NCBI GenBank assembly: GCA_021904315.1
Contig: CM038916.1
Coordinates: 7,343,065 to 7,407,064 of the forward strand
DNA: 64,000 nucleotides
Source of the DNA: Sphagnum magellanicum
Taxonomy: Eukaryota > Streptophyta > Sphagnopsida > Sphagnales > Sphagnaceae
Direction: 5' to 3'
Of the stretch, positions 1,719 through 56,880 are shown one piece after another (position 1 is the first letter of the stretch; the number at the start of each line of letters is the position of its first letter). The position numbers were made by a program, and so were the translations under genes. The notes beneath the pieces were generated by a model, which saw nothing but the letters and a program-made list of their open reading frames with translations, ran no database searches and had not been told where the DNA came from.

Positions 1719-4464
1719 ATGGCAGGTAAACCAGCTGCTCCTCTCAAGCCACAAAAAAAGAGAAACAGAACTGTCTCTGGAATGAAATCTGGAAAATTTT
1801 AATTTTCCTCTTGTTGTGGCCAAAGAATGCGGGTGCGTGCGTGGTCGCTAGTCAGTATTTTCTTTTCGCGATTTAGGCCAAAAGGATGCGCATCATGCGT
1901 TCCCGTAAGGATAATTATTCTGGCCAAAGGATGCAGCATTCGTGCTGGTGAGGATTTTGCACGACTCAGAGACCAAAGGATGCATGCGTGCTCGTAAGCA
2001 TTTTGACGATTTACCTATGCGGCTGCGTGCTTGTGGTGGATTTCTCAATCGGAAAAAAGAAAATTTTGGCCATGAGGATGATAATGATGATGATGCGGAA
2101 GTGACCCGCTGTCTGATGCACTCTGTTTTGTGAATCTTGAACTGCATAGTAGGCTCTTCATGATACCCGGATAGATCGCTACTTCTTGTGTTACATTGCA
2201 GTGTTTATTGTCTGTTCTATGTGTGTATTTTGAGCCTCCTCGTGGCGTTGAACGGTAGTCGAAGCATTTGAGAAGAAGAAGCATTCCTGCGATGCAAACA
2301 AACAAGGGGGGAAAGGAAAGGAAGGTGTCTGTCATCTGTTGTTGTGCTGTCTGTTATGTTGCTGATAATGTACTGTACGCGTGGCTTTTGACAGGCATGA
2401 GCCCTGTTGACGAAGAACTTAGTGCAATGCTGCGAAGTGACCTCCACCAGAGCCCCGCTCAGACAACTCTGGCAAGTGTCATGAGCTCACCGGCGGGCAT
2501 GGCCTTAGGACCCGGATCAGAGCACATGGACAGCAGCACTTTCTCTTCTCATTACTCATCATCTCTTGAGGGAGGGGGATTGATCTCTTCTTCTTCAAGT
2601 GGCGGCAGCCATGGAAGGCAGCAGCTGCTTGTACCACCTACAGTGAGGGGGGCAACAAACCTGTCTTCTGTTGAGGTGGCGTCTTCTTCCCATGTCCTTT
2701 CACTGGCAGCAGCTGCAGGTCCAGTCCAATGTAGTAGATTAACGGCTTTGGAGCAACAACAACCGCCTTGGCCACTCATTGCAGCTGATCAGAAGTTACT
2801 AGAACTCCAGGATCCTGCAACAAAAAACCAAGACTTCATGAAGAAAGCAGTGAACTTGCAAGTGATAAATTTCAGTACAAGCTTATTAGATGCTACTAGT
2901 ATGTCGTTACATGACTTGAATCCTCCTCCTCCTCCACAGTTTTCTTCTAGGGGTGGCTTGCAACGTTACCACTCAGCTCCAAGCTCTTTGCTACGGAGCT
3001 TGGCAGCAGATTGCAACAACGAGGATGGTTTAGGTTTCTCCTCCCACCAGGTCTCAAGTCCTCTGGGAAACAACACTGGCAATATTACGGATGACACCAG
3101 AGGTCAAAGCCTTATCCCTCCATTCTTCTCAGGTGCTGGCAACAACAACAACAACAACCTGACTTCAGTAACAGAGTGCGTCGTGCAACCTATGGAAACA
3201 GACAAGATGTTGAATGACTCCAACTTGCATCAGTATGATCAATTTCTTTCACCTGCAACTAAATCTAACAAGCGAGCTTCTCTTGTTACTACTACCTCTA
3301 TGTTTGCGGGAAAGCCAGACTCTAAGCCTGGTAACTCTCTCTCCCTTAGACATTTTTAACAGCTTATGAAAGCTTCCATGATTTGTGTGTAGTTAGAGTT
3401 TTTTTCGCTCAAAGGCATGTGTTTGTTCCTGCTGTTTCTTTCTGTCCCATTTGTGATTTTGGAAGCTCCCTGTCGTGCAGCTGACTTGTTTGGGAACCAG
3501 CCTCAACTTGGTAATGATAACCTTCTTCGCCAGAGCAGTTTACCTGCAGATTGGCTCGCAGCTTTTCACGGTAGCATTGATGACACGGATCCAAGTTCAC
3601 AAATGCCATCCATGACATCCCCTGATGAGAGTTTGTCTGGCAGAACATCTGAGGACACTGCTGGTGTTGGTGTGAGTGGCAAATCCTCAATATACTCAAG
3701 AGATGATTCTTTTCTTGTCATTGATACAACTTCTGGAGGACTGTGGGATTCTCCGACAAGTCCAGGTACAGAATGACTGCTGCATGTTCTTCCTGAGTGT
3801 ATACTGGCTCTGAGTGTTTCTCCAGTTCAGTGCCCAGGTCTCTGCTGAATCTTTCTGGGTGATAGTGTGAAGAACATTCTAGATGAGAAGATAGGCTGTA
3901 TATAATTCAGGAGCTCTCTTTTGATAATACTGTGCATGAATGGGTTTGTGAGGATTCCTCAGCTGTGGTAATTGAGCACAGTGCCTGTTTTTTTGGTTGT
4001 CAGTGGGTCATATTGGAGGCAAGCGGCTGCGTGGCATCCTGGGTGATGCCACAATTGACACAGGCGAAGGCTTACAGAGGGACAGGCTTGGGGGACCTGG
4101 CACCTTGATTAAGCATACAAGTCTACCAGCAAATTTCAATAGGCCAACTATTCCAGTACTTGATGACCTAGCTGACATCTCAGTGCCATGCCAGACTCGA
4201 GCAAAGCGTGGCTGTGCCACTCATCCCCGTAGCATTGCTGAGCGTGTTCGCCGAACCAAAATTAGTGAGCGCATGAAGAGGTTGCAAGACTTGGTTCCCA
4301 ACATGGACAAGCAAACCAACATGTCAGACATGCTGGATGAAGCTGTTGAATATGTCAAACGGCTTCAACAGCAAGTGCAGGATCTTTCTGATACAGTTGC
4401 TCAATTAAGGGATCTGAAGGCAAAAGGGTTAAAGGCAGAAGGCAATGGAAGTTCAGAAGTTTAA
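1719..4464 (+). CDS. bHLH transcription factor, FBH/bHLH122-130-like
   Basis: Spliced gene with four coding exons: 1719-1725, 2395-3330, 3481-3765 and 4004-4464. All junctions are GT-AG and the reading phase is kept across each. The product is 562 aa; if translation starts at the next ATG (2397) it is 559 aa. The first coding exon would hold only ATGGCAG. Exon 2 codes a Ser-, Gln- and Asn-rich region with a [10 protein letters not shown] motif, and exon 3 has [11 protein letters not shown], both like conserved motifs of the FBH group. The bHLH domain is near residues 474-525: [19 protein letters not shown] is the basic region (Glu and Arg contacts present), followed by helix 1, a loop PNMDKQTN and helix 2, then a leucine-rich tail. 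Such proteins are nuclear dimers that bind E-box sites; Arabidopsis relatives activate CONSTANS. The whole bHLH domain lies in one exon, whereas relatives usually have introns within it. Family assignment is firm, the exact orthologue is not. Confidence 0.88.
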
Positions 4465-6200
4465 AGGAGTTCTCATACCCTTCTGGAGCTCAACTTGCTT
4501 ATGGGAGTGCTTTGGAATGTGTACAATAACCCTTAACATTGTTAGAACCATTTGGCGAATCCTGCTTGGTCTGTGAGGATTGTGGAGTGTCCCTGGGGTT
4601 AGAGGTTCATCATGCTCTCTTGAAGAGGCAGATGTCTTCAGCAGAAGGTGACACCAGGCAATTGCAAGGTGGTTGACAGCTTAAAAAGGATTGGGGCCTA
4701 CACCCATAGTGGAAGAAGCAACTCTACTGAGCTGGCACCCTTATATTTTTGTTCTTGTTCCAACTACAATTGATTCCATTTCGAAAGGGAGAGGAAACTG
4801 AGCAGCTTGATCCTCAGTGGGATCAAGCTCCTCATCTTGAACATGTCAAGATCTTCTCTCAAGAGCTTTTACTGGGGTGTCCAATATGTTGTACACAAGT
4901 TTCAATTTTCCTAAATGTGATCCAGCAGCTTCCACCAACAGCCTGAAGTGTGATTTGATTTCCCATTTCTGTGTCATTTAATGTTGTTACATTACCATCT
5001 TCCATCTGATTTACTTTGGTATGTGGTCATGGCCAATTCAGAGCTGCTATCTGCAGCTGACAAGCAAGCCCCAGGATTTGGATGTGGTCTACTACAAACA
5101 CTGGCTACTCACTCGCGAGAGTTCCTTTTGCTGAAACAGCTACGACTGGTGAATTCAGGTATGTATTTGATACACTTCACTTTTAAGTTTCTTTTCTTGC
5201 ACATTATTTGATCTTACTTCCACAAACCAAAGATTTACCATGGACAAGAGAGTAGTGGGGTGTACAAGGAGAAACTCTAGTAGACAACAGACAGTTCAGG
5301 ACCCAGGGAACAAATTCAACCTCAAGCTTAGATACTTACATGAGAACAGGATCATCTTGAGATCCCACCAGAACCAGATACCCATGCAGTTTACCAATTG
5401 AATGTGTGTAGATTGGGCCCAGTTATTCTCAACAAGGGCTATTCCTCTTCTGTGTGGTTAAATACATTGTCCATGAAGGGTATCCTTGATGCCCTTGAAA
5501 CACGGCTTTTATACAACATTCAGGAAACCTCAAGGGACTTTTGGCCCCAAAAACTTAGGTCCTCCTGATTGAAATCCCTCTTCTCTATTCAAAAGGTGAC
5601 CAGCCATCCTACAAACAGGGCCCCCTTCTATTTTGAATGCCATAATGGACTAGGTAACTGGTGAGACTGGGCCTATAACCCACCAATTTGACAATAGAGA
5701 TGAGCTCTTTCCATCCATGTAGACAGTGGTTGTTGTGTTTTCATCCAAGAAGCAACAGGCTTACAGAATCGTGGGCCCAATGAGAACCAACGTCGGTACC
5801 TTGTGCTGAGTAGTAGGTTGCTAATGAAAGAAGGTCAGAGGTTAATGTGATATAATGGCCAATCAGGTGCATTTGAGATTCTCGTTCTGGTCTTGGCTAT
5901 GAACTTAATTGACATTTCTTGAAGAAAGACCAATCCGAACCTGCTGCATCCTCACACTTTTTGGCAACCTTCTGCATCATCCTGACTAACTCAAATCAGC
6001 TGAGAGTAAAGCACACAGCTGGGACACATAGCTGGGGATGTTCAGATCCAGCCCCACAAGCTGTCTATGACCTGTTACTGCATGTTGAACTGTCAGGCAT
6101 TGTAAGCTTTTTCTGGTGAGTGAGCTTACAGTTCATGTATCGATTGATTTATGAAGTATGTTTGATTGTCTGGCATTTAAGCCTGTATGTTGTGAGCTCA
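4465..6200 (+). other. Probable 3' UTR and gene tail of the bHLH gene
   Basis: This stretch is visibly less AT-rich than the spacer beyond 6200 and resembles transcribed sequence, but no frame over about 75 codons looks like protein. A consensus splice donor (CAG then GTATGT) stands at about 5158-5165, so an intron in a long 3' UTR is possible. No poly(A) site can be placed with certainty. It could instead be a decayed gene fragment that I do not recognise. Confidence 0.4.
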
Positions 6201-9200
6201 CAATTCATATATACATGTTTTTTGATGGAGGTTTGGAAGTGTGAATTCCAAGGCATTCAGGTTCAAACTATGAGAGGAGAGGAAGGGGCTTCACCTTGAA
6301 CCTTTAAAACCTCATGTCAAGAAGTCCTGTGTCATGGGTTTGACATAAAAAGCTTGAAAAAACAATAGATTATTAAATTGATTGGTTCCATTTTGTTTTA
6401 AACATGGGTTTGGTCGCAAGGTAATGTTCGTTGCAAGGAACACTTCACCATTCACTATCACAAATGGTCAAATGTGTTTTAGCCTGGTGGCAATATGTAG
6501 TTGTGTTTTGTGGCCTTGGTGTCATAATTCTAAAGGTGGTTATTATGTGAATTGTGAACTGTGTCTGCACAATTGGTCAAAGCTTACATACATTTGTTGA
6601 AAGCAATTTTTAAACCTTTTTTTTAAAAACAATTATTTAACATTCCTTTTTTAGGCAAACCATACTCTATGGTGTTTCTATGTTGATCAAACTATTTCAA
6701 TATATTGAAGTGTTTTGACATACTTTTTGGATGACATATGTGGAGTAAGATTTGAGAGAAATTCAACAAAAAGTAATCAAAGAGAAATCAACCATATATG
6801 ACCAATGAAACCAATCATGGTTGACAATACAACGAACATCAACATGCCAAATTTGGGTACACTACAAATACAACAAGAATGTATTCCTTACCTTTCTACA
6901 TGGTCAATCAACAAATTGCATGTTAGGAGTGTATGAGTAGTGAGAATGGTCATATAGCAACCATATGGCACTATTGAAACTTCATAGTACCTATTTTGGC
7001 AAAAATAGACACGAGGTTTCCATTCTCTTTTATTCTCCTCTAAGATTTGATCATGAAACATTAGCTAATACAAGAAACCAAATTATGGAGTGCAACCCAA
7101 TTTGAATCATAAGAATGCAAATTATGAGGCTTTTGCAATTCACGTTGATGGCACAAAACCCTTGTTTGAAGAATGTCAACACATATGAACCTAAGAATGA
7201 TGTTCAGTCCTATCTCTTAACAATTGATATGCACATAAGAGGTTGATATTCTAGGTGACTTGCAAAACACAATTGTTTCTTTTAGCATGATTCACTTGCC
7301 TAAATGTTGTGGATCCCATTATTATTGGTCATTCGACCTTAAAACAATAATGACCACAATCATACAACTAATTGTGACTACTTATAGTTTGAATGTACAC
7401 TTACATGAATTACTTTTTCATAAAATACATTTTTTACATCTAAACCAAAAACAAATCTAATGAAAATGGACAATTCAAAATTTGATTATATGATAGCTGA
7501 ATTCCATATGCATGTAGTCCTTACCTTGATCAATTTGCTTGCTCATGATCAAATGACACAACATGGGCCCATTCTTCTATGTACAATGGACATTCACAAT
7601 TAGCCTAAACTTTGAGTGGGGGTAAGTAGCATGGTAATAATAGTCCTTTACTTTTTCAATATAACATGGTTGAGCAAAAGGGTGATGATTCTGCATCAAA
7701 ATTACATTTATATAGTTACATAGTTTTAGGACAATTTGAAACAAGGCCCCATATTGATTTATCGGTGTTGCCAATGTTTCGTGTTTACAAGGTTGCACAT
7801 ATTCCTAGTTGAAAATGGGTTTTGAATGTTCTTTTTTCCTTTTTTCTTATGACTATTTTGAAGATTAGTAACACACATATGATGTGGATAAATTTGCATT
7901 TGGACTAAGTAATGATAACTAAATGAAAATAGGCAAGGTGTGTGTTAGTGTTAGGCAAGTATATGGTTTATCATATATTAGTGTGATAATGTTATAAAAT
8001 CTCTTGGAGATTTTAATGTCATAATGCTATTGATATTAACAAATTGTCAACTCTATATGTCATTATGGTGTGGTATAATCAAATTTACGATTTCCAAATA
8101 ATGGTATGAATGTAAATAGTGAGAAAATTAATATAAAAAATTCTTATGAAAAACCACATTATACCCTAAAATGTATTCAATTTCAACTTCAAATTGGTTA
8201 TATTTCAAAATAGAGAACTAACCATTACTAAATTATATATAATACTACTTTGAGTGAAGTAACCATCATTTAAAAACTCAACACTAGGTCACAATATTCA
8301 CCACACAAAATCTTATTTTATGTTTTCACATCCAATTTCATCAACCATGCACTCCTCCTTCAACAACAAATGGCACCTAATAATGAATGTTGGAGATAGT
8401 CTACCACATGTTATTATCAATTTGTTTAGTAAATAATACTTGTCAAATTTTCATACTGACCTAGTCCAAGTATTGACCCCAATATGCTTTAATTGGATAC
8501 TAGATTAGTATGTTTCTTACCAACATTACTTGCACCATGTTAATATATGAAACAACAAATTATATACTTGTTTAATATTAGTATGCAACATGTTTGGACA
8601 TTTAAAATTTTGGTTCAATTTATTGATCCATGAATGGGATTCAAAATTGTAACCATGGAATTCAAAATCTACATAATTAAAAGTCTTTGATAAAATTTTA
8701 ACAAAAATCAAGCAAAGGTTGAAAAAATTAAAAAAATAGATTGGATTCAAATAAAACTTACATCAGATTTCAAATTTCATTAACCATTTTTTTCTTTGAC
8801 ATGACATTAATGACTCATCTTGATGTGGCATTCATATGTTGGTTTCTTATCTCAATTTTTAAATTTTTCATACCTTGTTTACAACTATGTGTTAGATATA
8901 AATATTTTTTATTACATCTTCATCATATACTCATGTATATTATGCATTCATATTTTTTATCGCATGAAAATGAATAACTTTAAAAAGACATTTGCAAAAG
9001 GTCAAAATCTTTTAAGGTGTGTCAAAGATGGGGTCACAATATGAGCTTTTTGAATGTAGTCACAATCCAACAAGCCAAAAAAGGGGTTGGACTACAAAGA
9101 AAAATAGTTAAAATTGGATAAATATTTATGTTTTGCCATTTAAAGCCATAATAATCATGGCAAGTTGTTTGTTTTTCATTCATATGAATATCAAATAATT

Positions 9201-17489: not shown

Positions 17490-18329
17490 TCAGTACCTAC
17501 TACTCGTGTCCAGATATGGAGACAGAAAATTTTCCTGGTCCCAATAGTATGTCCAATCCTCCTGCTGCTCTGTAGGCCAGCAATTCCCCGTGCTTATGCT
17601 GCTGTAGTGATCTAAACCATGTAGCTGTACCCCAAGTGATCTCTGTACCCTAAGCGGTCTTTCAGATCCGTCATTTATACGCTGCGTCTGTAGCTCTTGA
17701 TCTGTACTCCCATTTTGTGGTGGTGTCCCAGGAGCTGTTTCTGCAGAATCCGATGAGCTTTCGGGATGGTTGTTGTTCTCGAGCCCTGTATATTGGTCGA
17801 TGTAGCTCTGTTGTTCACTTAGAGACAGAGCGATCGGTTTCGTGATCGACAACGGAGTACATGGTTCTGATGCTGCAGCAGCGGCAGCGGCGGCAGTCTG
17901 TACATCTTTTGGAGATTGACAGGGAACGTAGAGAGGTGGCGAGTCAGGGAAGTTGAGAGTCGTACTGGTGCAGCCTGCTAGCAGCTTGGGACCTCGTAAA
18001 CAAACGACTGCAGCATCATAAGCTCGAGCTGCCATTTCTGCTGTCGGAAAGGATCCCAGCCAAATGCGACTTCGTTTGTTGGGCTCTCTTATTTCCGACA
18101 CCCATTTGCCCCATTGACGCATACGCACGCCCTTGTACTTGGGACTGGTACTCAGCTGCCGCTGATGCTGCTGCTTCGGGCTTCTTGGAGACTTTGCAGA
18201 TGTCCCTCGAATCTGATTATTGAATGCTGCACCAGTACCATGAGCGCCGAGAAGAAATTTCGAGATATCCTTTCTCCCGGTATAACTATTACTGGCCCCA
18301 GACATTTGATCTTTGTTCTTTTCCACCAT
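17490..18329 (-). CDS. AP2/ERF transcription factor, DREB subfamily (copy 1)
   Basis: Intronless frame of 279 aa starting at the ATG at 18329. The frame stays open further upstream but has no ATG there, and that part codes a hydrophobic stretch over a pyrimidine-rich leader, so it is not used. One AP2 domain lies at residues 64-128 ([19 protein letters not shown], then [18 protein letters not shown]). Domain positions 14 and 19 are Val and Glu, the DREB signature, and the [10 protein letters not shown] type resembles the A-5 group. Such nuclear proteins bind DRE/GCC-like elements and control stress or developmental genes. The domain end carries about six extra residues ([10 protein letters not shown] where copy 2 has NAR) before LNFPDSPP. 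An Ala run and a Ser/Gln-rich tail follow; no EAR repression motif is seen. Its paralogue is at 23003-23824. Confidence 0.9.
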
Positions 18330-18850
18330 GACTGAAAATCCAACTGTGTCAGATCCGACTAGCGCAAAAAAAAATGAAAGAAAAGAGAGAAAGAAACTAG
18401 CAAGCAAGCAAGCACAGAGATAATTGAACAATGTAGAAATACTCTTCAGAAATCGGTGATGATGGGTAGTAGCTGCTATTCAGGAGCTGCAATTAATTAC
18501 AGTAAGAGGAGCTTCAAAACGAAGAATCTCTAAAGAAAAAAACTTTCCGACTCGAATGAGAAGACGAAGCAGAAGAAGAAGAAGAAGAAGATTTCGATCA
18601 GCGAAGAAGAACACAGTCATGAAGGAGAGGCGTTCGGACGAGAACAAGAGCGTTCGGACGGACGGAAAAACAACAACACTCCGTCCAGGCGCAGCGAAAC
18701 CTCGTTTTATGGACCTGCTCCTTTTGGGACCTCGATCAAGACCCCACTCACGTGTCCACACGTGCCGGCTGAATTTATGGCCACGCGGCAGAAATATCAA
18801 AGAACATTCAGAGAAAATATTCCCCATTCCTTTTCGTAACCCCATTCACA
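18330..18850 (-). promoter_or_regulatory. 5' leader and proximal promoter of ERF copy 1
   Basis: Two CACGTG G-boxes stand ten bp apart at 18749-18754 and 18759-18764, each in an ACGTG context typical of ABA- or bZIP-responsive sites. On the minus strand, CCATAAATTC at about 18771-18780 is a weak TATA candidate; if it is used, the G-boxes lie in the leader rather than upstream. A pyrimidine tract ending in GCGCTAG just before the start (about 18359-18385) could be a splice acceptor of a leader intron. A GAAGAA run covers 18568-18590. Confidence 0.45.
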
Positions 18851-23002: not shown

Positions 23003-23824
23003 CTACCAAGGAAAGCTCCATAAGGAATGCTCGAAACTCTCCTCTTCAAGGACTCGTAAGACCCAATCTGTTTGGTGGTGATCAGCTGCTGCTGCTGCTG
23101 CTGCTTGTGGTTGTTGTTGAGGGAGGTGCTGCAGAAGAGAATTCTCCATTTCGTCGTTCGAAAACTCCAGCTCCGGAAAGTAATCCACTTCCTCAAAATC
23201 TTCGAATTCGCCAAATTCCTCCTCTATCCATTCCACTCCCGCCGAACTCCTCCGCTGCTGCTGCTGCTGCTCTAATTCCGAGCGGCCTGTTGTTCGTGAT
23301 TCTTCCAGTGCAACTAGGTTGAGGTTCTTCATCTTATAGTTGTCCGCTTGTTGGTTGTTGTCTTCTTCATGATCTGAGCTGCTGCTGCTGGATGTTGATA
23401 TTTCTTGAGATTGATCCGGAAAGTGAAGAGCAGTAGCTGGAGGGATAGCAGAAGCTGCGGCTGCGGCTGCCGCTGCTTGAATCGCCTGAGGTGACAAAGT
23501 ATCATGGATTTGAAGAGTAGGAGGAGAGTCAGGGAAGTTGAGACGTGCATTGGGTCCTCGCAATGCCACCACTGCAGCATCGTAAGCTCTCGCTGCCATC
23601 TCTGCTGTCGGAAACGATCCAAGCCAAATGCGGGATCTTTTGTTGGGTTCTCTGATCTCCGACACCCATTTCCCCCATGCTCTCATTCTCACACCCCGGT
23701 AGGCTTTCACATTTGAACAGGTGCTCTGCTGCTGCTGCTTCTTCTTCTGTATGGAACCCGAAATTTTCCCCTTTGCAGCTCTCTTGACGCCCAGAGAAGG
23801 CGCCTTCTTCTTCTCCATCATCAT
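23003..23824 (-). CDS. AP2/ERF transcription factor, DREB subfamily (copy 2)
   Basis: Intronless frame of 273 aa. The start is the ATG at 23824, first of three consecutive ATGs (MMMEKKK); the nine codons upstream in frame contain no ATG. A basic Lys/Gln-rich N-terminus (residues 4-35) could act as nuclear localisation signal. The AP2 domain is at residues 41-99 ([45 protein letters not shown]) with Val14 and Glu19, the DREB signature. Then come an Ala run, a Ser run, Gln-rich segments and an acidic, aromatic region ([15 protein letters not shown]) that looks like an activation domain. The C-terminus is LWSFPW. The AP2 domain is nearly identical to copy 1 and both genes have the same orientation about 5 kb apart, so they arose by local duplication. 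Target genes cannot be told from sequence. Confidence 0.92.
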
Positions 23825-24340
23825 CGTACTGTTCTGTACCAACAACAACACTTCACCAGAAACCGAACTTGATTGCTACTACTGTAATTCTCTAAACCTG
23901 TCAATTACTGACAGCTTCAAACCCAAGAGCCTCTAACCCAAAAAAATTCTCCACTTTTCTTGTCAACTCTGAGTCCGTGAATGGTGATTTCTGAGGGCAA
24001 ATATCAAACTTCACTACGAGAGAGAAGATCTAGATTGCTTCTTCCGGCAGCACAGAAACAAAAGACACATAGAAGAAACTCCTCCTCAATTCTTCTTCCC
24101 CAAATTGGTTTCTACCAAATCAAACAACACTTGGGTTTCTGTGATTTTTCTCGAGATGGGTAGTTGATGTAATTGTTGTATCAGATCAGTGCGAGTTCTG
24201 TCTGCTGAGAGCGCAGCTGAATGAATCCCGATTGCAAATGGAAGCAGGAAGAATTCGGGTATATATACGCGCTCTCTTGCATCCGACGCGCTTGCGGACA
24301 AGAACCCTAAAAAGGTAAGGGCAGGCAGTCACGTGGTGGG
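23825..24340 (-). promoter_or_regulatory. Promoter and 5' leader of ERF copy 2
   Basis: On the minus strand a TATATATA box lies at about 24260-24267, which puts transcription start near 24230 and gives a leader of roughly 400 nt. A CACGTG G-box at 24330-24335 sits about 65 bp upstream of the TATA box, in a good position for ABA or light control through bZIP or bHLH factors. The leader contains an upstream ORF of 18 codons plus stop (24014-24070). Confidence 0.6.
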
Positions 24341-47399: not shown

Positions 47400-49168
47400 T
47401 AATTCAAGTTAACAAAACTCACCCTAAGTTGACCTAGGTTGACCTAGGCTAATTTACGCTTAGCTTTAACTAACACATGTTAACCTAGATTAACTTAAAC
47501 ATTTCTAACCTAAATGTGGGCCTACTTATTATAAATTAACATAGACTTAGATTGAGGTAAAATAGGCTAAACATAATTATTTAGGCTAAACTTGGATAAA
47601 TTTTGCTAAATTAAAATATTGAAAATAAGATAAATTTGGCTACACTAGAATATTGAAAATAAACTTGGCAAAACATGGCTATTTAGGTTTACATTGGCTA
47701 AACATGGCTATTTAGGTTAAACCTTGGTTAAATTGGGCAAAAATTAAATAAATAAAGCTAAATTAGGATATCGAGACAAAATTTGGCTAAACATGGTTAT
47801 TTAGGTTAAACTTGGCAAATTTTGGCTACTTATGTGAAACTTGGCAAAATATGGCTATTTAGGTAAAATTTGGTAAATTTTGGTTATTTAAGTTAAATTT
47901 GGCTAAACTTGGTAAAACTTGGAAAATTTTGAATAAATAAAATAAAATAAAGATATTGAGGCAATACTTGGAAAAAACTAAATAAATTAGGATAAAATAG
48001 AGTATTGAAGCAAAACTTGGTGAAACATGGCAAAACATGGCAAAACATGGCAAAACATGGCTATTGATGCAAAACTTGGCAAAATTTGGCTAAACATGGT
48101 TATTTAGATTAAATTTGGTTAAATTTGGTTTAACATGGTTTAAAATGGCAAAACATGGCTATTTAGGTTAAACTTGGCAACATTTGGTTATTTAGATTAA
48201 ACTTGATAAAATTTGGCAAAATTTGGCTCTTTTGTTTAAACTTGGCAAAATTTGGTTAAACATGGTTATTTTGGTTAAATTTGGCTAACCTTGGAAAAAA
48301 ATTAAATAAATTACATTAAACTAAGGGAGTGAGGCAAAACTTGGCAAAACATGGCTAGACTTGGCAAAACTTAAATAAATTAAGCTAAACAAGGGGATTG
48401 AAGCAAAATTTGATAAAACATGGCTAAATTTAGCAAAACTTAAATAAATTATGCTAAACTAGGGTATTGAAACAAAAATTGGTTAAACATGGATATTTAT
48501 GTTAAATTTAGTTAAATTTGGCAAAACTCAAATAAATTACGTTAATTTAGGGTATTGAAGCAAAATTTAACAATATTTGGTTAAACATGAAAATTTAGGT
48601 TAAATATAATTAGACTTAACAAAACTTGGATGAATTATGCTAAACTAGGGTATTGTGATTAAACATGGTTACTTAAGTTAAATTTGGCTAAACTTGGCAA
48701 TAAATAAATAAATTTGGTTAAACAAGCTACATAGTTTTAAATTGGCCAAACTTGGCAAAACTTGGAGAAGTTGGGTTAAATTAGGGTATTGAGGTTATAT
48801 TTGGCTAAACATGATTTAATTTAAAATTAAACTTGGCTAGACTTGTCAAAATTTATATAAGTTAAGTTTAAATAAATATTAACATTAAACTTGGTTAAAC
48901 ATGGCTATTCAGACTAAACTTGAATAAAATTAGCAAAACATGGTTAAACTAAGGTTAATTTTGGTTAAATTTATTTCAATTTGGTTTTTTTTTAAAAAAA
49001 TGAGCTAAAATTGGCTAAATCATGTTAAACTAAATTAGTAATATTTTGTCAAGTTAAAATCAAAATAATTAAACTAAGATAAATTAGTTTAAATTATATT
49101 AAATTATGTTAAATTGGGCTACATTAGGTTAAATTAAATTAAACTATGTTATTTATGTTACATTAAGC
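47400..49168. repeat. Degenerate satellite-like tract
   Basis: About 1.8 kb of loosely repeated AAACTTGGCAAAACATGG, GGCTATTTAGGTTAAA and TTGGCTAAACATGG motifs, with roughly 30-40 bp periodicity and much divergence. Similar sequence resumes at 57726-57795, on the other side of the inserted CACTA element, which confirms the insertion. Confidence 0.75.
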
Positions 49169-49790: not shown

Positions 49791-50352
49791 ATAACCATTA
49801 ATAAAATAACCATCAATAATCACCAATAGCCATGAATAGAATGGCCACCAATAGCCATCAATAGAATAGCCACCAATAGCCATGAATAGAATAGCCACGA
49901 ATAACCATCAATAGAATCGCCATCAATATCCATTAATAGAATAGCCACCAATAGCCATCAATAGAATAGCCACCAATAGCCATCAATAGGATAGCCACCA
50001 ATAGCCATCAATAGGATAGCCACCAATAGCCATCAATAGGATAGCCACCAATAGCCATTAATAGGATATCCACCAATAGCCATTAATAAAATAGCCACCA
50101 ATAGCCATTAATAAAATAGCCACCAATAGCCATTAATAAAATAGCCACCAATAGCCATTAATAAAATAGCCACTAATAGCCATTAATAAAATAGCCACTA
50201 ATAGCCATTAATAGGATATCCACCAATAGTCATTAATAAAATAGCCACCAATAGCCATTAATAAAATAGTCACCAATAATCATTAATAAAATAGCCACCA
50301 ATAGCCATTAATAAAATAACCACCAATAGTCATTAATAAAATAACCACCAAT
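49791..50352. repeat. 25-bp tandem array, left part
   Basis: The unit is ATAGCCACCAAT followed by AGCCATTAATAAA, itself two related half-units of 12 and 13 bp. More than 20 copies run to the hAT insertion at 50353 and the array continues at 55902. Confidence 0.92.
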
Positions 50353-50657
50353 TAGGCCTCGGCAAGGTAAGGTAGACAACTGGTTGTTACTCGGTAAAAC
50401 GGTAAAAGTTAGTGGTAAAGGTAGAAGGGAATGCAACAGGTAAGGTAGCGGGTAGAGTAAAGGTAAAGCCGAACGGATTACCCGATTACCCGGTAATTAC
50501 AGGTAACTAGGTAAATTATTTATTATGGCCCCGGTGCCTTAATGGAGTTCGCCGTCAGTCCGCACGAAGTCCACCATCAAGCTTGAGTCCGCCATAGAGT
50601 CCACCTTGCAAGTCGCCACGATCTTCCGCTGTGGCGCTGAGGGAGCTACAAAGTACA

Positions 50658-52769
50658 ATGTCGAGCAACGGTGATCCTACTGTGAGCATGGTCGTTGGTG
50701 AGGACGCTACTGTCGTCGTTGCGTTCGATGACAACGACAACATGCAAGCGGCCGTGCATTCTGTCGCCAAGTCAAAGCGGAAGCGCCAAAAACACCAGTT
50801 TCCATGGGAGTATGTCAAGGATTGGTAAGACGGCGACTCCGCCAAGCATTGCGGAAAGCGCCAGTGCATGGTGTGTCGTAATTGGTATTCCGGATCGACC
50901 AATGCATCAGGCTGGAAAGCCCACATGAAGAGCGCGCACGGCATCACCGGCAACGACATCGCGTTGTCTGCCTCGTCCGGCAAGCTCATATTCCAGTCGA
51001 CATTCAGCAGCAAGCCCATGTTTTCGGAGCCCGTTCTACGCAAGTATGAAAATGCCGTCGTGGACTACGTCGTCGAAGGTGGCGTCACCCTACGCGCGGC
51101 TGGCGGCATTCATTTCAAAAAGTTCATTGTTTCGTTGACAAACGGATACGAGCCGCCATCGACTCGAACAATCCTACGACGGATCGCCGAGTTGTACTAC
51201 ATCTTGGAGCCATTGCTGGCGGCATTTTTGTGCAACCTCGATGTCGCCATCTCCCTGACGCTAGACGGTTGGTCGAATCGCAACCTGAAGGGCTTCTACA
51301 TTGTCACCGCGCATTGGGTCGACGTCATTTCTCTAACCAACAAGAACATTCTCTTGACGATCCTTGATGTCAAGTGCGGGACTGGCGTCAGCAACCGCGT
51401 CGGGGCTGCCCTGTTCGAGTACCTGAAGCGCCTAGGCCGGGATGTCGTGACGCGTTTGCTCAACGTTGTCCGTGACAATGGGATAGACGCGACGGTTGCT
51501 ATCGCGCGGCTCTTCCAGCTAGTCAATATTTTCGTCGGCAACAAGCATATGCGCAAGGTCAACAACGTCCGGTGTGCTGACCACTCCGTCCAGCTCGCTG
51601 TGCTCAAGGTGTTGACGTTCATTAAGGAGCCCACCGAGCAGCTACGAGATGCGCTGATCAAAATCCGCCGCAACAAAGTCATGCGACAACAGTATCGCAT
51701 CCAAGCCGCAACAGCCGCGCTTGCCAGCAAGGAGCCGACGCACCAGGACTCGCCCACGCGCTGGAACTCGACTCACGAGATGTGCGCCGACGCTTCTGGC
51801 AAGCGCATCATTTTGGACTGCATCATGGACCAGTACGCGGCCGACATTGGCCACGGTGCTCTCCCTGACCTAGAATGGCATGCCATTGACGACGTGTCGA
51901 CGTTCCTTCGTGCGCCGCGCCAGGTCATGGAGAGCCTCGCGGCCGATCACAAGCCGACGCTCGACCTAGTGTCGATGTCCGTCTCTCTACTCTTGAAGCA
52001 CTGTGACGACAACGAGCAGCAGTTGCAAGAGATCAACGGCAAGCTAACAGCGATCGGAATGAAAGCGAAGCTTGAGAAGTACAAGAATAAGCTGGTGCAG
52101 GAACCAACGATCATTGCGGCGTACTTGAACCCGCAGATCCCCAAGCCGACCGACCCGACGGAGCTGAAGCTCGTCGTCGATCTCGTTCGCAATTCGTTGC
52201 AACGTCGCTACTCGGCCGAGATGAGCTCTCACTAGAGCATCGAGCAGGAAGCGGCCGACAACTCACTTTTTGCCGCGATGTTTCAGCTGCAGCGCGACGT
52301 CGGTGGTAATGGCGACGAGGTCGACCAGTATCTATCGATCGACGTTGTCCATTCATCAGGGTTCATCGACGTCTTGTCGTGGTGGTCAGCCCAGAAGGAA
52401 TCGTTGCCGGGCCACTACCAGATGGCCATGGACTACCACGGAACGCCGGCGACGTCGACGCCATCAGAGCGGGTCAACAGCGCTGCCGGTCGTGAATTCA
52501 CATGCACCCGACAGTCGCAGTCATCGTCGGTGTTCATCATGACAATGTGCCTACGTTCGTGGATGAATGCCGGTATCCTCAAAGTGCCGACGAATCGAGC
52601 GCAGGCGACGGCTGCCCTCGGACAGGACGGCACCAACAATGTGGAGTCGGTCGTCCAGGAACTTGAGGAGGAACAGGAGGAGTGGGACGAGGAGATCCTT
52701 GACGATGGTGTCGTTCAGATACTCCACAACCAATTCGCCGACTTGGTCTCTGAATGCCAAGAACTTTGA
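50658..52769 (+). pseudogene. hAT transposase, open except for two stops
   Basis: A single frame of 704 codons from the ATG at 50658 to the terminator at 52767-52769. It is interrupted by TAA at 50826 (codon 57) and TAG at 52233 (codon 526), with no frameshift seen. A BED-type zinc finger follows the first stop (Cys70-x2-Cys73, His89, His94, with FPWEYVKDW just before). The RNase-H-like core has SLTLDGWSNR (first Asp, codon 203), VRDNGID (second Asp candidate), CADHSVQLAV and SPTRWNSTHEM. The hAT dimerisation region after codon 540 has LSWWSAQKESLPGHYQMA and TSTPSERVNSAAG. The product would cut and paste the element through its terminal repeats. The gene is much GC-richer than its surroundings. 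The TAG could come from a CAG by C-to-T change; the origin of the TAA is less clear. Confidence 0.9.
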
Positions 52770-52954
52770 GAGCTGAAGATGAAAGTACTAAAGAGAGAGG
52801 GAAAAGCGATCAAATGTTCAGATTGTTGAAAATAGTTGAGCAGCAAGGTTGTGACTCGACAATGTTTGTTTGATCCATGTGAACTCTGTACGAGATTAGA
52901 GCTCCTCCTCAATTTACATCTTGGCCCATCAAAATCTCTTGTTATTACAATGTC

Positions 52955-55645
52955 TAGTAAGGAATTAAGGTTTGAGCAACTAGAACAGCATTTCATCGAT
53001 GAGTACAAATCAACTGCCACCTTGTATTGGCACCAAAAGATTGGTGCTGAGATCATGTCAGTTACCAATGAGGATGAGATAAGGTCTTTGGCATTGTCTT
53101 TCACACCCCACCGTAAGTGACTATGGAGTTCTTTTCATCTGTTCGCCCCTGCCCAGAGCATTTTGTGAAGTCACCATCATATTCTGTTCCTACTGTGAAC
53201 CACATGTAGTACCATGTACTGATGCCAATGGAACTGCCTGCCATCTGCTGTTGTTTTTTATGATGCAAAATTCAAACAATACCCTTTTCCAGAAACTGGC
53301 ATCCCTAGTTTTGGTCTATAGCTCTTGTTGGTTTGTGTACGAGGCTAGAAGGTGGAAGGCAGGAATTCATTTTCTTGAAATGTCTGAAATTGCAGGAAAG
53401 ACTCCACAGGGATACCACACATATTGGAACACAGTGTGCTGTGCGGCTCAAGGAAATATCTGTTGAAGGAGCCATTTGTAGAACTGCTTAAGGGGAGTCT
53501 CCACACTTTCCTGAACACCTTTACTTACCCTGACCGCACCTGTTACCCTATCACATCCACAAACATCAAGGTATTTGTCTGTTTTGTTGATTGATGAATT
53601 GCATATTCCAATTTCAAAAATTGTTTGTCTACTTCATTCTTGTAGCTCATCACAGGAGGAGGAGCAGTGTATTATTATCATGAAACTGAGAACTAGCAAT
53701 GTCTTTGAGTTGTTTCTGAAAGCTATTTGACTAAAGGAATGAGAGTATTAGGAACTCTGGTACCTTTGCCACAACACTCTGCTGCACTATAGTTCTAACA
53801 CAATTGAACTTGCCCTTTGTTTTCCTGCAAGGTTGGGACTTGGGTCTTCTGGGATGGTTTAGGGTTTAGGGTTTAAACCCTAAACCTTCTACAATCTGGT
53901 GGATGTGTATCTAGATGCTATATTCCACCCTCATTGCGTGGATGAGGTACACACCTTTCAGTAGGAAGGGTGGCACTATGAGTTGAATGACCCATCTGAG
54001 GACATTACCTATAAGGGTAAAAAGGCTACCTGTGGTACACAATGATTCTGCTGCTGTCTACAATTCTATTTTTCTTTGTAAAAGTTGCAATTGTGACCAG
54101 GAAATTGAATTGTTGATTATGTAACATTTGGTATCTGAACCTGAAAGTGACAGTATGTGAAATGATGTTACTTCGATAAAGAGGTTTCTGTGTATATTCT
54201 AAGGAGGGCTACCTTTGATTATACATTGTTGAAGAGGTGATTGTGTCAAGTGTCTGACAACCATTCATTTTGTCTTGTGATGTTGTTACAGGAGTGGTGT
54301 TTAATGAGATGAAAGTCATGTCTAATGATATTTGCAAGTTGCACAGGACTGCTTTCCATCAGGTTCTTCAGGGGAACTCATCCATGTTCTACTCTGTAAA
54401 AGTTGCTGTTGATTTTGAGGAATGATGTCCTATTGGAAGTGCTCTTATCTTGTTGGGGCTCATAAAACTCCTGGAGGTTGGTTTTCATTTCTCAACATTT
54501 TCAATTTGAATTTGTGTTCTTGTACTCTTGTTCTGTCCATGCCTCTCTGGCCTGAGTTTACTGATGATCATGCAACAGTTCTGTAGATCTTTAGCCCTCC
54601 AGTCAATACTGAAGTATTTCAAGAACTGGAAACAGGAAAGGAGTGAAATAAAGTGAAAAGTTGGATGCTTCTCAACATCATCACCCCTGGGTTTCAGCTT
54701 CCTTGGTGCTGGTGGACTGGCAAAAGATTCAAGAAAGATTTCCAGTAATAAAACTAGGCAAGTATAAAAAGACTTGTGGTCCATTCACTGAATATTGATG
54801 AGTAGGGCTTCAATGGAGGCAATCTAATCAACTACTTGTGTTGGATGTCTGATCCTTCATTGTGAAACTTGGCAGTGAACTTGCAATTTGTATGACCCAG
54901 TAGTTAATATAATAGAGTAATGCTATGGATGTGTGACCCATTGAACAATCCTGTTTCCTGAACAATTTTTTTGGGAAATTTGGGTGTAGTAGTTTCATGT
55001 TGGCTACAAGTGACAATTGTGATTTAGTTTACTCCACTAAAAGACAAGCAATTATATATATATGGAGTTGTACTTCTACCAATTGTCAAAAATCATAGAG
55101 AATGGGTAGAAATGGAGAAATAAAATTGGGCTTGGGCCGTGTCTCTCAGCAGGCTTGGACCCTAGTTCAAAAATGGATTTGCTGTTAGGTTTTTGTGGTT
55201 CGTCTTCACAACATGGCGATTAGAAATTTCTCAAGGTTTAATCAAGTTGGGTTTGAGAAAGATATGGTGACTGATGAAGTATAAAATTTGCAAGTGCAGG
55301 CTTTATTTCCTGACAACGCGTATGGTGTTGATAGTGGTGGACCTCCCACTGTTATTCCAAATCTGACCTTTCAACAATTCCAGGTTTGTTTTTTGTTTCT
55401 TTGTGGGTGGACAAGCAAATATATGTTCCAAGCTATTGTTGGAGCAGCACTAGGCAAGTTCAAGATGTTGGAGTATTAATGCTGTTTGTGGTGATTTTTT
55501 TTCTGGCTAGAAGCATGGTACATTTTTCTCCACATGAAACTGTTTTGTGTGTGTGAAGGCAAGTCTTACTGCCCCATCCTCAGCTCTCCTTTATGTTCAT
55601 GACAGGAATTTCGTGCCAAGTTTTATCATCCAAGCAATGATCTAG
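52955..55645 (+). pseudogene. PreP: Captured fragment of a presequence protease (PreP) gene
   Basis: Six exon-like blocks match plant PreP, the M16C zinc metalloprotease that degrades targeting peptides in mitochondria and plastids: about 52955-53112 (TATLYWHQKIGAEIMSV), 53396-53570 (GIPHILEHSVLCGSRKY with the inverted zinc motif HxxEH intact, then EPFVELLKGSLHTFLN), 53887-54016 (FYNLVDVYLDAIFHPHC), 54292-54361 (GVVFNEMK), 55300-55383 (AYGVDSGG and IPNLTFQQFQ) and 55606-55645 (EFRAKFYHPSN). Most splice sites are still GT-AG in matching phase. Defects: a frame slip near the end of block 1, a TAG in place of Gln in block 3 (HTFQ then EGWHYELN), loss of the acceptor before block 3, and no 5' transit-peptide part or C-terminal two thirds. 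It covers only part of the N-terminal catalytic domain. It lies wholly inside the hAT element and, with introns kept, was taken up as genomic DNA. Confidence 0.9.
53863..53886. repeat. Telomere-like perfect palindrome
   Basis: A 24-bp perfect palindrome in which TTTAGGG units meet CCCTAAA units head to head. It abuts directly the first Phe codon of PreP block 3 and replaces its splice acceptor. Confidence 0.85.
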
Positions 55646-55663
55646 TAATCATGCACAATGATT

Positions 55664-55805
55664 ACTGGGTAATTACCCGGTTGAAGGGGTAGGGAAAGGT
55701 AAAAACATTTTACTGGGTAATTACCCGGTTGAAGGGGTAGGGAAAGGTAAAAACATTTTACTGGGTAATTACCCGGTTGAAGGGGTAGGGAAAGGTAAAA
55801 GTAAA
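55664..55805. repeat. 48-bp subterminal tandem repeat of the hAT element
   Basis: Nearly three identical units start ACTGGGTAATTACCCGG at 55664, 55712 and 55760. GGGTAATTACCC is palindromic. Related ACCCGGTAATTAC motifs lie near the left end, so these may be transposase-binding sites. Confidence 0.85.
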
Positions 55806-55901
55806 GGTAGGCGTGGGCGAATTGGGTAAGGGTAATGGTAAGGTAAGGGTAGGAGACAATGTATTACACGTTAACCTTTTACCCTACCTTGCCGAGGCTT
55901 A

Positions 55902-56365
55902 CCACCAATAGCCATTAATAAAATAACCATCAATAGTCATTAATAAAATACCCACCAATAGCCATTAATAAAATACCCACCAATAGCCATTAATAAAATA
56001 GCCACTAATAGCCATTAATAAATTAATCACGAATAACCATTAATAGAATAGCCACAGTAACCATTAATAAAATAACCACCAATAGCCATAATATAATAAT
56101 CACCAGTAGCAAGTAAGAGAATAACCACCAATAGCCATTAATAGAATAACCACGAATACCCACTAATAGAATAACCACGAATAGCCACCAATAGAATAAC
56201 CAGGAATAGCCACCAATAGAATAACCAGGAATAGCCACCAATAGAATAACTACTAATGGCCTTTAATAGAATAACCACCAATAACTATTAATAGAATAAC
56301 CATTAAAAAACATTAATATCCACAAATAGAATAGGTACCAATAGCACTAATAAAAGAACAACTAA
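55902..56365. repeat. 25-bp tandem array, right part
   Basis: Continuation of the array interrupted by the hAT insertion. The units become more diverged to the right (AATAACCACGAATAGCC variants). Confidence 0.9.
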
Positions 56366-56880
56366 TAGCCATATATTATAATTGCTTAGGATTGCCAAAA
56401 ATAATTTAAAGTGAAATAATTTATAATAAACAAAAATAACTTAAGGTGAAATAATTTTCAATAGCCAAAAATAACATAGAATAAACAAAAAAAACTTACA
56501 ATAGTTGAAAATAGCCTAAGGTGAAATAAGTTAAAATATCCAAAAATAATTTATAATAACTACAAGTAGTCTAAATTGAAATAATCTACAATAGCCAAAA
56601 ATAACATAGAATAACCAAAAGGACTTACAATAATTGAAAATAACCTAAGATGAAATAAATTAAAATAGCCAAAAGTAATTTATAATAACTACAAGTAGTC
56701 TAAATTGAATAATGTACAATAACAAAAAAAACATAAAATAACCCAAAAAAATTACAATAGCTAAAAATAGCCTAAGGTGAAATAAGTTAAAATAGCCCAA
56801 AATAACTTAAAATAACCAAAAATAATTATAAATAGCCATAAATAGCCATATATAATGTAGGGTGAAATAATTTCAATTAA
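56366..56880. repeat. Tandem repeat of about 129 bp
   Basis: Three units share CTTACAATAGTTGAAAATAG, CCTAAGGTGAAATAA and TATAATAACTACAAGTAGTC. Their CTTACA points are near 56495, 56624 and 56751. More diverged copies flank them. Confidence 0.75.

Follow-up and report, generated by a model that had tools for sequence, protein, structure and literature searches.

The 5549 bp between positions 50353 and 55901 are a single hAT transposon insertion that carries, inside its ends and together with a transposase frame, about 1.9 kb of a presequence protease (PreP) gene with introns. The insertion lies in a stretch of 64,000 nucleotides of Sphagnum magellanicum DNA, hereafter the window (C10:7343065-7407064 of an assembly of 438,994,042 bases in 31 contigs). 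Considering this insertion together with related copies in the same genome, we propose, with a probability of roughly 0.88, that a hAT element gained host DNA behind its transposase gene in successive break or gap repair events, that it transposed in between, and that the cargo is a passenger. Copies that contain the PreP piece are called carriers below. The features, with positions in the window, are the following:

50345..50352, no strand: left 8-bp target site duplication, CCACCAAT, tested for register by array spacing
50353..50374, plus strand: terminal inverted repeat of the left end (22 nt), 91% complementary to its right-hand partner; the remaining carriers have a near-identical end
50658..52769, plus strand: hAT transposase frame, 703 codons and a stop, with Dimer_Tnp_hAT and premature stops at 50826-50828 and 52233-52235
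52854..52860, plus strand: scar of a 271-bp deletion relative to the PreP-less copies and to carriers L013 and L014
52953..52960, plus strand: TCTAGTAA at the 5′ capture junction, with PreP-derived sequence next
52961..54313, plus strand: first part of the captured PreP piece, with the remainder of exon 1, exons 2 and 3 and introns, and the beginning of exon 4
53858..53886, plus strand: patch of telomere-type repeats (TTTAGGG units followed by CCCTAAA) that takes the place of the beginning of PreP exon 3; found in five of seven carriers
54314..55132, plus strand: second capture, 819 bp from C12:9954380-9955198 (4 mismatches, 99.5%), replacing about 28 bp of PreP exon 4
55133..55639, plus strand: remaining part of the captured PreP piece, from the end of exon 4 through exon 5 into the beginning of exon 6
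55641..55648, plus strand: the other copy of TCTAGTAA, at the 3′ capture junction; CAATG, common to donor and hAT, lies before it (55635-55639)
55662..55805, plus strand: three 48-bp subterminal repeats of the element
55880..55901, minus strand: right terminal inverted repeat, a 22-nt arm that pairs with the left arm
55902..55909, no strand: right 8-bp target site duplication, CCACCAAT

The left end of the element reads TAGGCCTCGG, and its 22-nt arms are short terminal inverted repeats, as is usual in the hAT superfamily. The insertion splits a tandem array with a 25-bp unit (21.3 copies at 49821-50352 and 16.2 copies at 55901-56302). Because most units of this flanking array contain CCACCAAT, its presence on both sides is by itself little proof, and the target duplication was tested by register against the array. 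The phase shift across the element is 5582, which equals the element (5549) plus one unit (25) plus the duplication (8), and therefore there was one insertion at 50353-55901. An earlier note on this DNA had reported matching terminal repeats and an exact 8-bp duplication; the two arms bear out the former, and the phase jump, in register with the 25-bp array, confirms the latter. Further tandem arrays were observed near the element, at 48271-48655 and 56414-56816 (periods 69-98 and 129), and outside it there are two frames on the minus strand, 17490-18479 and 23003-23875, that we take to resemble AP2/ERF-type transcription factors.

PreP exon 2 aligned residue by residue with the solved chain 2fge (E 3.5e-32), listed as a zinc metalloprotease and presumably Arabidopsis PreP; the chains ranking after it for this exon carry the name presequence protease. 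A tblastn search with P0001, the closest PreP relative found, returned six PreP exon blocks in order, with block 4 cut short and block 6 partial. The best named PreP relative, among the best 120 of 7997 matches listed, comes from Ceratodon purpureus (77%). The blocks and their order agree with the six PreP blocks with introns that had been described within the element ends, except that the inner block cannot be PreP as a whole, 54314-55132 matching C12 instead. No PreP sequence was found outside the element when a 1-kb flank was searched on each side: the matches end within 50353-55901, so that the refuting case named earlier, PreP continuing beyond it, did not arise.

The donor stretch, with its introns, is C14:4169471-4171396. 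When the own genome was searched with the PreP piece of L014 and 9 of 9 candidates were scored, the seven carriers and two loci, on C14 and C13, were found, and a search for the M16C-associated domain also gave two PreP loci, on C13 and C14. The C14 locus is 93% identical to the L014 piece over its whole length, while C13 reaches 72-86% in pieces and was rejected as the donor for that reason. In the window, the first and second PreP parts are 89.7% and 95.1% identical to C14. The C14 alignment runs through the introns (1932 columns); introns were kept in the cargo, and therefore the capture was from DNA. PreP exons continue past the captured stretch at C14, and at C13 PreP was matched exon after exon. 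Exons 2 and 6 of C14 have gaps (4 bp and 1 bp, respectively) that are missing from the captured copies, so these copies represent an older state of C14. The wider locus (C14 4169430-4176329; L015, L037) shows frame-breaking gaps, query residues ~339-396 have no listed match there, and it looks like a decaying paralog of C13. Judging from these alignments, the donor is this decaying PreP paralog on C14; the donor anticipated earlier was found and its introns align, but it is not intact.

Searching this genome with the element yielded 90 matches; 40 of 81 candidates were scored, so that the family size is a lower bound. The comparison covered six sister carriers, 12 members without PreP, and the loci on C14 and C12. 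The seven carriers, the window copy included, lie on seven contigs, the six sisters have near-identical ends, and all seven have exact 8-bp duplications (8/8), each different from the others. All seven hold transposase sequence together with PreP at different sites, two of them with an uninterrupted 704-codon frame, in agreement with the earlier suggestion that cargo and enzyme could have moved together. Sister copies with PreP, whose existence had been in question, were thus found, with PreP-less members besides. That the ends belong to two unrelated insertions, or that an assembly join imitates one element, is exceedingly improbable, because seven copies on seven contigs have the same ends and nested structures and each has its own duplication. 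For the 10 PreP-less members listed, the duplication matched at 8/8 positions in five and 7/8 in three, and there was no match at the cut used in two: L028, where the right-hand cut is not at the end, and L017, where GGTAGTAG can nevertheless be recognised on either side, at a distance of 7 bases from the left end.

A tree was built from the transposase region with 17 rows of the 19 family members, leaving out L027 (5′-truncated) and L028 (short). All carriers group together in one clade (99/95). Nested in it is a clade of the five that have the deletions and the telomere patch (100/100), and nested in that is a clade of the three that contain the C12 piece (98/92). The placement of L013 versus L014 is weak (83/79). 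The order in the tree agrees with the order of the indels. Since the seven carriers form one clade with the same junctions, the copies indicate that there is one PreP capture, followed by repeated transposition. The carriers are explained by hAT, C14 and C12 sequences with no stretch longer than 60 bp left over, save for a 2443-bp insertion in L013. This later insertion (3779-6221 in element orientation) contains internal tandem repeats and is flanked by a hAT repeat of about 9 bp. The PreP-less copies L024, L025, L026 and L027 have insertions of 496-1358 bp at different points; these insertions share repeated sequence, up to ~820 bp long and 71-88% alike, in both orientations, which probably represents another transposon family. 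L028 and other short matches consist of a left end of ~242-257 bp and a right end of 142-198 bp and are probable miniature non-autonomous derivatives of the same hAT.

The comparison of copies shows a series of states, to which we add an inferred route of repair. The starting state (step 0) is a 3.5-kb hAT without PreP; the PreP-less copies of this kind in the same genome correspond to the element before capture. Next (step 1), 1.9 kb of the C14 PreP paralog lies at one point 3′ of the transposase gene with no hAT loss there. The five carriers of the nested clade have lost 271 bp and ~470 bp and have the telomere-repeat patch (step 2). The window copy, L009, L010, L011 and L012 all lack these two segments of hAT sequence, L013 and L014 retain the hAT 3′ part around the PreP piece, and the patch includes two full telomere units in the window copy and L012 and three in L009, L010 and L011. 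Finally (step 3), three of those five, the window copy included, have 819 bp of C12 where ~28 bp of PreP are gone. The C12 piece is common to the window copy, L009 and L010, which differ from the C12 segment by 4, 10 and 6 bases, respectively, L010 having in addition a 7-bp gap. Its source lies ~0.7-1.6 kb past the last frame assigned by eye to a neighbouring gene on the same strand; a PAM2 motif in this gene scores 21.8 bits (cut-off 20), one of four frames being above its cut-off. The C12 piece may thus be 3′ UTR.

After excision or another break, repair synthesis would run from a second copy of the element, quit this template at short shared sequences, copy a host locus and rejoin the element; a switch of this kind would leave the enzyme gene and the ends intact. 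The junctions were read in three states. PreP-less copies have CAATG-TCTAGTAA-TCCTG, the donor has TTGTGAA-GGAATTAGG ... AAGCAATG-CATG, and the carriers have CAATG-TCTAGTAA-GGAATTAGG ... AAGCAATG-A-TCTAGTAA-TCCTG. In the first capture no hAT sequence was lost and TCTAGTAA is present twice, its right copy being changed at one base in L013 and in L014. The microhomology consists of AA at the 5′ junction; at the 3′ junction it is CAATG, with a single additional A. Sharing of at least 5 bp is expected for 0.1% of position pairs taken at random, or for 0.3% if one base of slack is granted. At the second capture, AGT is shared on the left, one base short, and TTGGGC is repeated on the right. Together, the junctions of both captures suggest template switching during break or gap repair. 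As read from the letters of the junctions, such repair would require a slip or a second switch for the extra A, and the left junction of the second capture is likewise one base off. The sequence CAATGATC also occurs in the hAT, 20 bases further on from the 3′ junction, and a double template switch via CAATGATC could give the extra A with no untemplated base.

The junctions could also have originated from a staggered cut, in which the hAT transposase or another nuclease makes an 8-bp break, PreP is ligated or copied in, and fill-in duplicates TCTAGTAA. If CAATG is counted as donor, the duplication flanking PreP is exactly 8 bp, the length of the target duplications of the family. We consider this route improbable nonetheless, because the adjacent 5-bp CAATG common to donor and hAT would then be due to chance (0.1-0.3%) and the second capture shows no duplication and instead lost ~28 bp. 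Donor homology also extends to within 0-1 bp of the duplication, so that transposon ends would not fit, and a nested transposon was rejected as an explanation of the PreP block for the same lack of room.

The transposase of the window copy contains the hAT dimerisation domain (E 5.4e-15), and the hAT C-terminal dimerisation region, PF05699, was found in L009 and L010 with E-values of 2.9e-14 and 3.6e-14. Against solved structures, the best match was Hermes, a weak one (E 0.003) in the C-terminal region, and zf-BED at the N-terminus scored 18.3 and 18.5 bits, under the 20.6 cut-off. The transposase frame reported by the earlier note is present, but it is not intact, and its two in-frame stops rule out a working enzyme in the window copy. 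An own-genome census with the L009 transposase (37 of 37 candidates scored, 35 matches) found two unbroken full-length 704-codon frames, C2:27220011 (L009) and C3:16519747 (L010). Both sit in carriers that have the PreP piece and the C12 piece, and within the 35 matches frames of this kind were confined to carriers. Premature stops number two in the window copy, one in L011, five in L012, three in L013 and 12 in L014; the full-length PreP-less copies L017 to L022 have 4, 10, 7, 8, 12 and 12 in-frame stops, respectively, with frameshifts in addition in L018 and L022.

Selection on the transposase after capture is unsupported. NG86 dN/dS values were 0.2-0.4 in 15 of 15 pairs computed, dead copies among them. 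The value for L009 versus L010, 0.33, is not significant: the neutral simulation gave a mean of 0.42, with values from 0.23 to 0.74, and a chance of 6.7% that this pair would show no stop in the absence of selection. Branch tests, which counted changes confined to a single row or a single stem and dropped shared and repeated ones, were not significant either (p = 0.16 for the stem compared with dead branches and p = 0.22 for the entire path since capture), with a chance of no stop of 0.32 on the changes counted. Changes between carriers are mostly transitions (75 transitions and 8 transversions for the window copy versus L009), and singletons of the C-to-T type amount to 0.34 per CG, 0.27 per CHG and 0.21 per CHH site, biases that would fit methylated, decaying copies. 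We regard the carriers as no more than possible autonomous elements, since for such young copies the intact frames are statistically no better than chance.

It might then be asked whether the carriers owed their movement solely to enzyme acting in trans, in the manner of common non-autonomous Pack-type elements, with the two intact frames being incidental. The frames broken in five of the seven carriers and the lack of significant selection on the frame after capture would be expected in that case, and earlier PreP-less sources may since have died. We find it doubtful: as the unbroken full-length frames that were found all belong to carriers, any enzyme that this family supplies in this assembly would have to come from the carriers themselves.

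The PreP cargo lies 3′ of the transposase and on the same strand. A 1-bp deletion in exon 1, absent from C14, is common to all seven carriers; unless the same base was lost repeatedly, the reading frame was therefore already lost in their common ancestor, and the cargo looks like a passenger. Expression of the cargo as a protease was rejected on account of this deletion; in the window copy, moreover, exon 3 contains a stop and exon 4 is broken. A use to element or host, for example through small RNAs acting on PreP genes or as 3′ regulatory sequence, seems very unlikely to us. The cargo is downstream of the transposase on its strand, and in the four of seven carriers checked it has exact runs of at least 21 nt with the C13 PreP gene (2-4 per carrier) and with C14 (28-33). 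On the other hand, among 25 of 28 pairs listed for the element there was none in which the cargo forms a long inverted repeat (the longest one touching cargo is 27 nt, 74%), the frameshift is in all carriers, and the later patches add damage.

Abortive gap repair is a source of Ds elements. Extending the proposed history of successive repair events, we tentatively suggest that a coding-intact hAT lineage may repeatedly gather host DNA in a tolerant zone behind its enzyme gene, as interrupted repair of excision gaps resumes rather than aborts. The copies with cargo would have become the sole remaining possible source of enzyme in the genome, and capture would be a by-product of autonomy and not of its loss; for the first capture, the transposase itself may have supplied the break, as an 8-bp staggered cut. 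This extension is far less secure than the history itself.

Going by the published description of Hatvine-6, the coexistence of transposase and cargo in hATs is already known. In these grapevine elements, host exons, introns and non-genic DNA were matched in variable regions (Benjak et al. 2008, PMC2528002), and like them the element described here combines transposase sequence and ends shared among copies with pieces of host genes. Unlike them, it has one capture common to seven copies, two unbroken frames within the carriers, and a stepwise series of empty, donor, filled and second-fill states, a series that does not appear in the parts of that report considered here (PMC2528002). In the pertinent sections of the Pack-TYPE survey (Gisby and Catoni 2022, PMC8903248), elements that match transposases are all classed as autonomous and Pack-hATs are defined as non-autonomous. 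The carriers resemble Pack-hATs in having host coding DNA between hAT ends, 8-bp target duplications and spread via transposition; in contrast to that definition, which excludes transposase, all seven hold transposase sequence, two of them unbroken, which places them outside the count of that survey as far as those sections define it (PMC8903248). They behave as transduplicating transposons, with a gene piece wholly inside the ends, a donor on C14 and seven copies at different sites.

The maize elements Ds2-22 and Ds-l4 carry gene fragments, and the account consulted states that the capture mechanism is not known and cites replication errors in the repair of excision breaks as a suggestion (PMC3260210). 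As described there, they share with the carriers the hAT superfamily, an intron-bearing gene piece from another chromosome and filler DNA, but they are non-autonomous Ac relatives, while two carriers have a full transposase frame (PMC3260210). Fungal hATs with histone H3, according to the portion of that study used here, also join a transposase domain to the sequence of a housekeeping gene and were amplified and decayed by transitions; H3 is described there as a retrocopy, with copy numbers in the hundreds, unlike the introns retained and the DNA source found here (PMC6710886). A tandem-insertion route for Pack-CACTA appears in a 2026 review, in the part drawn on here (PMC13317346).

The present case contributes a series of states that is unusually readable step by step; in addition, the two full-length frames found unbroken both belong to cargo carriers. 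One genome holds the empty element, both donors and the states after the first and the second capture, with readable junctions. The pickup of host genes by cut-and-paste transposons is still mostly inferred, and the template switching proposed here is testable across accessions. Surveys that set aside all transposase-bearing elements would miss a class of hATs that carry cargo plus enzyme.
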